A program made the translations under genes and the position numbers. Below are positions 21,624 through 39,439 of a stretch of 64,000 bases of DNA, one piece after another (the first letter of the stretch is position 1; every line of letters begins with the position of its first letter). The notes under the pieces were generated by a model. The model did not search any database and was not told the DNA's origin. It worked only from the letters and a program-made list of their open reading frames with translations. The stretch comes from Lachnospiraceae bacterium (lineage in GTDB: Bacteria; Bacillota; Clostridia; Lachnospirales; Lachnospiraceae), in contig JAIEAP010000042.1 of NCBI GenBank assembly GCA_029071325.1, positions 62,001-126,000 on the forward strand, read 5' to 3'.

Positions 21624-22469
21624 ATGCGAAGTTCTATGAAGAAAGCAATTGCAAAAATAATCCTGTTATTATTGGCTGTCTGCTGCGATGTGTGGCTGAC
21701 TGCATATGTAAGGAAACAGGCATCCTTTTATCAGCCCTTTGATGAATCCTGCATGGAGCGGGTGATAAAAAATCAGGAGATTATACCGGATACAGTGAAG
21801 CTGCTGCAGGAATATGCGGCGGAAACCGATATGACATATGAGGAATGGTTATGGGCGTATCTATATACCGGGTCAGATGACAGCCAGGTGATGGAACAGA
21901 CATGGGAGCGGCTTTGGAACAGATATCCGGAAGAAATCCAGCAGCAGACGGAGTATCTTAGGGCAATCTGGTCCGATCTTGTGTACTTTCCGGTACCGGC
22001 TTCCTCTCTGGATGCGGATAAGCAGGTGGCATTTGAAAATTCCTGGATGCAGAGCCGCACCTATGGGGGAAATAGGGGGCATGAAGGCACAGATATTATG
22101 GCCTCCATCAACAGCCGCGGCGTGTATCCCATCATCAGCATATCCGATGGCGTGGTGGAGAAGATGGGGTGGCTGCCCAAGGGCGGTTACCGCATCGGGG
22201 TGCGCAGTGAGCACGGCGCGTACTTTTATTATGCCCATTTGTCTGATTATGCAGAAGGGCTGAAAGTGGGAGACCGGGTTCATGCAGGCGACCTTTTGGC
22301 CTTCATGGGCGATACCGGTTACAGCGAGGTGGAGGGAACCACCGGAAACTTTGACGTACACCTGCATTTTGGTGTATACTTAAATGATGCGGCGGGAAAT
22401 GAATTTGCAGTAAATTCTTATGCTGTACTGCAATATCTTGAGGAACGCAAATTGCAGTATCCTTATTGA
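21624..22469 (+). CDS. M23 family metallopeptidase, membrane anchored
   Basis: N-terminal hydrophobic segment; RGHEGTDIMA, GVYPIISISDGVVEKMGW, HLHFGVYLN. Confidence 0.9.
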   Translation: MRSSMKKAIAKIILLLLAVCCDVWLTAYVRKQASFYQPFDESCMERVIKNQEIIPDTVKLLQEYAAETDMTYEEWLWAYLYTGSDDSQVMEQTWERLWNRYPEEIQQQTEYLRAIWSDLVYFPVPASSLDADKQVAFENSWMQSRTYGGNRGHEGTDIMASINSRGVYPIISISDGVVEKMGWLPKGGYRIGVRSEHGAYFYYAHLSDYAEGLKVGDRVHAGDLLAFMGDTGYSEVEGTTGNFDVHLHFGVYLNDAAGNEFAVNSYAVLQYLEERKLQYPY

Positions 22470-22481
22470 GACAAATGTGTG

Positions 22482-22675
22482 TATCTGAGTTTCTGTTATT
22501 TCCCGAATTTTGTGCGCCATAGGGTTCCCATCGCAGAGCGATGTGAACATTTTGCGGCGGAAAGTGTGTTGGAAAACAAGTTTTCCAAACACTTTTCCAC
22601 GCAAAATATCCGTGTTGCCGAAGGCAACAAGACCCTATGGCGCCTCAAAATCACAAAATGCAGAAACTCAGGATA
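22482..22675. repeat. Candidate MITE-like palindromic element with four-stem (cloverleaf-like) folding potential
   Basis: Ends tatctgagtttctg / cagaaactcaggata; inner tgcgccatagggt / accctatggcgc; internal hairpins catcgc-aga-gcgatg, ttttgcg...gtgttggaaaac-aa-gttttccaaacac...cgcaaaa, gttgcc-gaa-ggcaac. Confidence 0.75.
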
Positions 22676-22689
22676 AAAAGGAGTTTGTC

Positions 22690-23406
22690 ATGGCAATGCT
22701 GAGGATTGATAAATTATTGACGGAGATGGGATTTGGGAGCAGAAGCCAGGTAAAGCAGATGGTTGCCAGGGGCAGAGTGAGCGTGGACGGCACGGTAGTA
22801 TCCCGCCCGGAGACAAAAATGGACCCGGAACTGTCTGAAATTACGGTGGATGGGATGCCTGTAGTTTATACACAGTATGAATACTATATGCTACATAAGC
22901 CCGCAGGTTATGTCAGCGCTACCCAGGACAATTGTTATCCTACGGTGGTGGAACTGATTACCGGCGCCGTGCGCGGAGATTTGTTTCCGGTGGGACGGCT
23001 GGATCTTGATACAGAAGGATTGCTTCTCGTCACCAATGACGGGGCGCTGGCACATAAGCTTCTGTCCCCGAAAAGGCATGTGCCCAAAGTCTATCAGGCA
23101 AGGGTCACGGGTATAGTCGATGGGGAGGATATTGCAGCGTTTCAAAACGGTATGGATATCGGAGAACCGGAATGGACGCTTCCGGCGACGCTTCGTGTCA
23201 TTTCCACAGACGAGACGGAATCTTTCGTGGAGGTTGTGATCACGGAGGGAAAATATCATCAGATCAAGCGTATGTTTGCGGTAAGAGGCAGGGAAGTCCT
23301 GTATTTGAAACGCATCTCAATGGGGAGCCTTACGTTGGATGATACACTGAAAAAGGGTGAGTACCGCCCCTTAAGCGGACAGGAAATTGCGGAGTTGAAA
23401 CGATAA
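22690..23406 (+). CDS. RsuA/RluB/RluF-type pseudouridine synthase with S4 domain
   Basis: Start at MAMLRIDKLLTEMGFGSRSQVKQMVARGRVSVDG (SD aaaaaggag); GRLDLDTEGLLLVTNDG; EGKYHQIKRMFAVRG. Confidence 0.93.
   Translation: MAMLRIDKLLTEMGFGSRSQVKQMVARGRVSVDGTVVSRPETKMDPELSEITVDGMPVVYTQYEYYMLHKPAGYVSATQDNCYPTVVELITGAVRGDLFPVGRLDLDTEGLLLVTNDGALAHKLLSPKRHVPKVYQARVTGIVDGEDIAAFQNGMDIGEPEWTLPATLRVISTDETESFVEVVITEGKYHQIKRMFAVRGREVLYLKRISMGSLTLDDTLKKGEYRPLSGQEIAELKR

Positions 23407-37971: not shown

Positions 37972-39439
<1,468 letters not shown>

Follow-up and report, generated by a model that had tools for sequence, protein, structure and literature searches.

Tiny mobile non-coding palindromes of Lachnospiraceae gut bacteria: a hitherto undescribed family whose stems vary in concert

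Bacterial MITEs such as Correia/NEMIS, RUP and ERIC are non-autonomous elements of 100-200 bp, highly base-paired and provided with terminal inverted repeats and target duplications (PMC2229807). REPINs, belonging to the REP-RAYT system, are dispersed palindromes that keep their hairpin folding through compensatory changes (PMC3116915). A process able to produce comparable structures is template switching, which is documented in E. coli (PMC7202029) and has been proposed to create and maintain hairpins, being inferred for the hairpins of RNA genes (PMC8794818); in this type of quasipalindrome mutation, imperfect inverted repeats are perfected in one step, and multi-base paired changes appear without wobble intermediates. 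The element described here shares the features of the first two systems and probably also those of the third. It represents an old copy of a non-coding, non-autonomous, MITE-like transposon, and the family to which it belongs, made up of tiny mobile DNA elements without coding capacity in Lachnospiraceae gut bacteria, had not been described before.

Structure and surroundings of the window element

The DNA under analysis, hereinafter the window, is a stretch of 64,000 nucleotides from the genome of a Lachnospiraceae bacterium (assembly GCA_029071325.1, contig JAIEAP010000042.1, positions 62,001 to 126,000), referred to as G000. The initial annotation had described, upstream of an RsuA-like pseudouridine synthase gene, an imperfect outer inverted repeat enclosing three hairpins; this palindrome was recovered at 22482-22675, and the loops of its two short arms (AGA and GAA) are indeed of three nucleotides. 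The boundaries of the element (Table 1) were set by global alignment to an intact 196-bp copy of the genome G220 (L279:3783-3978), itself flanked by a target duplication; beyond them, the outermost bases contribute 2-3 more pairs, out to 22482 and 22675. The fold predicted for the + strand reaches -98.4 kcal/mol (z -10.8) and that for the - strand -103.3 kcal/mol (z -12.2), and none of 200 shuffled sequences folded as well on either strand. The termini of the window copy are homologous to those of the G220 element, the two aligning end to end. As the annotation had remarked, no clear target duplication is visible around this copy (bordered by ...GTGTGTA on the left and by ATAAAAA... on the right), whereas its relatives have clear ones.

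Table 1. Features of the window element and of the two adjacent genes (positions in the window).
Feature	Position	Strand	Basis
Whole element (decayed copy of four-stem MITE, 189 bp)	22484..22672		Alignment to intact G220 copy; fold
Left outer arm / terminal inverted repeat, TCTGAGTTTCTG...GCGCCATAG	22484..22522	+	Pairs with right arm; terminus homologous to G220 TTTGAGTTTCC
Arm 1 hairpin, TTCCCATCGC-AGA-GCGATGTGAA	22525..22547	+	Fold; both-side changes at 9/9 modelled pairs (A2)
Long middle arm, ATTTTGCG...GGAAAACAAGTTTTCC...CGCAAAAT	22549..22607	+	Fold; both-side changes at 12/14 modelled pairs
Arm 3 hairpin, TGTTGCC-GAA-GGCAACA	22613..22629	+	Fold; both-side changes at 7/7 modelled pairs
Conserved core GG...CC, 112 nt, three arms	22523..22634	+	Alignment A1, covariance model R1
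Right outer arm / terminal inverted repeat, - strand reading CCTGAGTTTCTGCATTTTGTGATTTTGAGGCGCCATAG	22635..22672	-	Pairing with left arm; alignment to G220 copy
Upstream gene, reads as M23-type peptidase (putative)	21624..22469	+	ORF; syntenic in 7 congeners
Downstream gene, RsuA-like pseudouridine synthase	22690..23406	+	Sequence, ORF; orthologues in congeners

The element stops just 5' of AAAAGGAG, the ribosome-binding site of the RsuA-like gene (start 22690). Long open frames run across it, one at 22479-22676 (65 aa) and another at 22510-23406, in which the rsuA frame is extended upstream to a TTG; going by the gene starts of the congeners, the frames crossing the element are suggested to be spurious.

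The same window contains the rpmA-obg palindrome (37980-38135), which had been considered similar in style and different in primary sequence. It represents a separate, unrelated family, with no BLASTN similarity between the two window elements; it too is dispersed, with 27 BLAST matches in G000 and a conserved half GAGCAAAGTTAGCTGCGAAGCAGCG...GCGCCTTTGCG. Its long stem differs between copies yet stays self-complementary, the concerted variation being judged by eye.

Copies, empty sites and target duplications

The G000 genome was searched with a 221-bp stretch as the query and then with a covariance model built on the 129-nt core (alignment A1, obtained with MAFFT from sequence alone), and the element was found in at least seven places. 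The congener G002 (Lachnospiraceae MAG RGIG4815) yielded at least 35 covariance-model matches, and its copies total about 60 or more; 61 copies were collected, 60 from G002 and one from the MAG ABMPRH_237_1. A survey of 397 genomes of the family revealed four other carriers, i.e., G220, G284 and G351, with at least eight matches each (both strands counted), and G402; the element occupies nine places in 400 kb of G220, at least six places in each of G351 and G284, and one in G402, all the copy numbers from genome searches being lower bounds. In addition to G000 and G002, three other Lachnospiraceae genera carry many copies each, the remaining six congeners gave no covariance-model matches, and the distribution of the family is patchy. 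No member was found in phage and plasmid collections by blastn, nor in IMG/VR by the arm pattern. Matches to the arm pattern in Ideonella, Mesorhizobium and Planctomyces reached just 25-27 bits with the model and were taken as chance. The known forms of the element span 70-199 bp and are non-coding, dispersed and multicopy; no gene is carried by any copy examined, and the copies occur in all gene orientations.

The two genes flanking the window element lie about 15-109 nt apart in 7/7 congeners, where the element is absent, versus 221 nt in the window genome; the window element was therefore inserted at this site. Junctions without the element are likewise seen in relatives for several of the copies in G002. 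The intact G220 element is 196 bp long, with inverted termini TTTGAGTTTCC...GGAAACTCAAA, and target duplications of 7-13 bp (mostly 8-10) are present at all 13 G220 insertions (ends TTTGAG...CTCAAA), while only 2 of 156 control (mismatched) flank pairs reach 7 bp. These 13 insertions measure 70, 126, 154 and 195/196 bp. In G002, six of the 30 copies with canonical ends have AT-rich duplications of 6-8 bp, versus a mean of 0.29 in shuffles. Dispersal, empty sites, inverted termini and target duplications thus mark the element as a MITE-like transposon, non-coding and non-autonomous, and the evidence for its mobility is strong. Three deletion forms, L324:13578-13647 (70 bp), L287:9437-9562 (126 bp) and L270:17367-17520 (154 bp), are flanked by target duplications of 9-12 bp, from which it appears that the terminal repeats may be sufficient by themselves for movement.

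Neither a longer element with a transposase nor any other autonomous partner was seen in about 1.19 Mb of G220 and in the collected loci; the same 1.19 Mb hold short copies, 13 of them complete, and several others that are truncated. The ends expected to bound an autonomous G220 copy are TTTGAGTTTCCCCATTTTT, with duplications of 8-10 bp. Concerning the mobilizing enzyme, a REPIN-type element, moved as single-stranded DNA by a RAYT, i.e., a Y1 tyrosine transposase, might be imagined, since dispersed palindromes with compensatory changes are found here as in REPINs (PMC3116915) and the hairpin arms have 3-nt loops. However, the Y1_Tnp domain (PF01797) has no match in G000 (99.9% complete) or in G002 (83% complete), although it was detected in the congeners G001 and G005 and in control genomes, and the 7-13 bp duplications, together with the terminal inverted repeats, point to a staggered double-strand insertion, so that this origin is extremely improbable.

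Concerted variation of the stems and private arms

In alignment A2 (68 matches), which was fitted with the structural model and hence favours pairing, pairing holds in 98.0% of the modelled stem cells, both sides are altered at 36 of the 41 modelled pairs, and both-side changed cells number 362 versus about 40 changed on one side, a result matched by none of 500 shuffles. Alignment A1, built by MAFFT from the sequences only, already had both-side changes at 19 of the 41 pairs. At the 16 outer-stem positions beside the core, the arms mismatch at 8.3% of comparisons within a copy versus 47% between copies (0/5000 permutations), and the core GG...CC is nearly invariant across copies. The mismatches over all stems comprise 46 G-T and 27 A-C; the full outer stem (16 G-T, 20 A-C) shows no G-T bias, and the middle arm (28 G-T vs 18 A-C) some G-T excess.

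The initial annotation had left open whether the palindrome was a member of a dispersed family or a structured RNA. The former part is borne out by copies, compensatory changes, empty sites and target duplications: the element is not single copy, being dispersed in the host genome, in G002 and in other genera, nor is it conserved as part of a coding frame, and compensatory changes between stem halves were found in every stem. A functional structured RNA, on the other hand, is neither needed nor favoured, with no Rfam match at gathering and wobble intermediates almost absent. In favour of such an RNA (a regulatory leader, an sRNA or a terminator) that spreads, its pairing being kept by selection on the transcript, are the very stable fold and the covariation found in all stems; several long-stem G002 copies also lie between convergent genes, with two relatives having ordinary terminator-like hairpins at one such site. 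This is nonetheless improbable: no Rfam family matches anywhere in the window at gathering, and at permissive thresholds the element is hit only by microRNA-hairpin models, which score far below their cut-offs; intermediates with a G-U changed on one side are seldom seen, and in the outer stem A-C mismatches are as common as G-T; all the congeners do without the element at the same site; and its copies stand in every gene orientation.

In many G002 copies the outer stem is private and nearly perfect over 25-69 bp, and in several it is mismatch-free over 36-46 bp, with the proviso that G002 is an 83% complete MAG and individual private stems may include palindrome assembly errors. The inner part of these stems retains a degenerate version of the canonical end, and a search for donor sites found no other copy of them in the G002 assembly. 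Changes are mirrored on both arms in the form of insertions (L102, L085), a tandem duplication (L104) and extensions (L091, L097). In L093 (2340-2540), the 3' end and the stop codon of the adjacent gene lie inside the left arm, whose outer 20 nt are the 3' coding end of that gene, and the right arm is an exact inverted copy; the coding origin of the left arm is shown by the paralogue L153, 85% identical over the flank. Only in L093 does an arm correspond to native coding sequence. A general origin of the long stems by copying of the host flank at the present site was rejected, as it is supported for this copy only, and the orthologous empty sites of L079, L091 and L102 show neither arm as native. 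In L079 (3093-3221), the upstream frame passes through the stem into the core.

Two further observations concern G002. In L118:1-197 and L055, the contig ends inside the element and the arms match at all 64 bases compared, the comparison reaching the contig end; a contig ending in this way suggests that assemblies break at the palindromes of the family and that still longer stems occur. In L097:7015-7229 and L077:1377-1591, the core, whose middle arm contains additional sequence, is 199 nt long.

The private stems might be thought to belong to the target, i.e., to pre-existing palindromes, such as terminators, into which cores were inserted. The location of some long-stem copies between convergent genes, and the short terminator-like hairpins of two relatives at one such site, would agree with this; but near-perfect palindromes of 44-69 bp are not ordinary terminators, the empty sites of relatives have no similar palindrome, one arm of L093 includes gene coding sequence, and the degenerate canonical ends persist within the private stems, all of which make such an origin very unlikely. 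Somewhat less remote, though still rather unlikely, is that arm complementarity is kept by selection at the DNA level through ordinary point mutations, the transposase or a single-stranded intermediate needing a cruciform. The about equally rare G-T and A-C mismatches of the outer stem and the nearly invariant core GG...CC are what such selection would produce, but it accounts neither for the insertions, tandem duplications and extensions into host sequence that are mirrored on both arms nor for the mismatch-free 36-46 bp stems.

Proposed mode of movement and comparison with known systems

It is quite probable that the element is a MITE-like transposon moved in trans, whose arms are kept complementary by hairpin template switching at the DNA level. 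A transposase acting in trans would move it, cutting with a stagger of about 8-10 bp; once the element has been inserted, or while it moves, a new strand would pause at the cruciform, fold back and copy one arm from the other, so that template switching would keep the stems complementary. Such copying would homogenize the arms and mirror insertions and duplications on both sides, and by overrunning the end of the element it could sometimes copy host DNA into the opposite arm. Independent compensatory mutation leaves the mirrored indels and the host-gene arm unexplained, whereas template switching explains them. The paired stem changes also fit template switching better than selection on RNA, and the data favour one-step copying between arms over slow compensatory mutation; the evidence for DNA-level templating is good but indirect. 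A variant in which end rewriting belongs to the transposition cycle itself, the ends of a folded hairpin intermediate priming synthesis on neighbouring sequence and new copies thereby sometimes gaining perfect, private terminal repeats from donor or target DNA, is rather unlikely.

No host function is needed, and evidence for any is absent; as a side effect, the element might influence the translation of rsuA or, where genes converge, termination between them. The dispersed copies of one palindrome amount to a natural replicate experiment on the persistence of perfectly paired long stems, and the family includes a copy in whose stem the 3' end of a host gene is mirrored. More generally, strong covariation can arise in mobile palindromes at the DNA level without RNA function, which bears on the use of covariation as evidence for functional RNA.

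The family is a new one of a known kind, and the mode of evolution of its stems is unusual. Unlike Correia/NEMIS, RUP and ERIC, it has a three-hairpin core closed by an outer stem and a different sequence, and its stems vary in concert, with private perfect arms. It differs from REPINs in that neither of the two carrier genomes tested has a Y1 transposase, in having duplications of 7-13 bp at terminal inverted repeats and in its 112-nt three-arm core. Compared with the template switching of E. coli and of RNA hairpins, the process is inferred here across dozens of dispersed mobile copies, with one stem extended into host DNA. A similar copy-specific dynamism of the arms characterizes the foldback transposons of Drosophila. 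Two of these, Galileo and Tetris (PMC2775673, PMC4079207), are transposons with long inverted repeats like the present family, but eukaryotic, of kilobase scale and with much longer arms.
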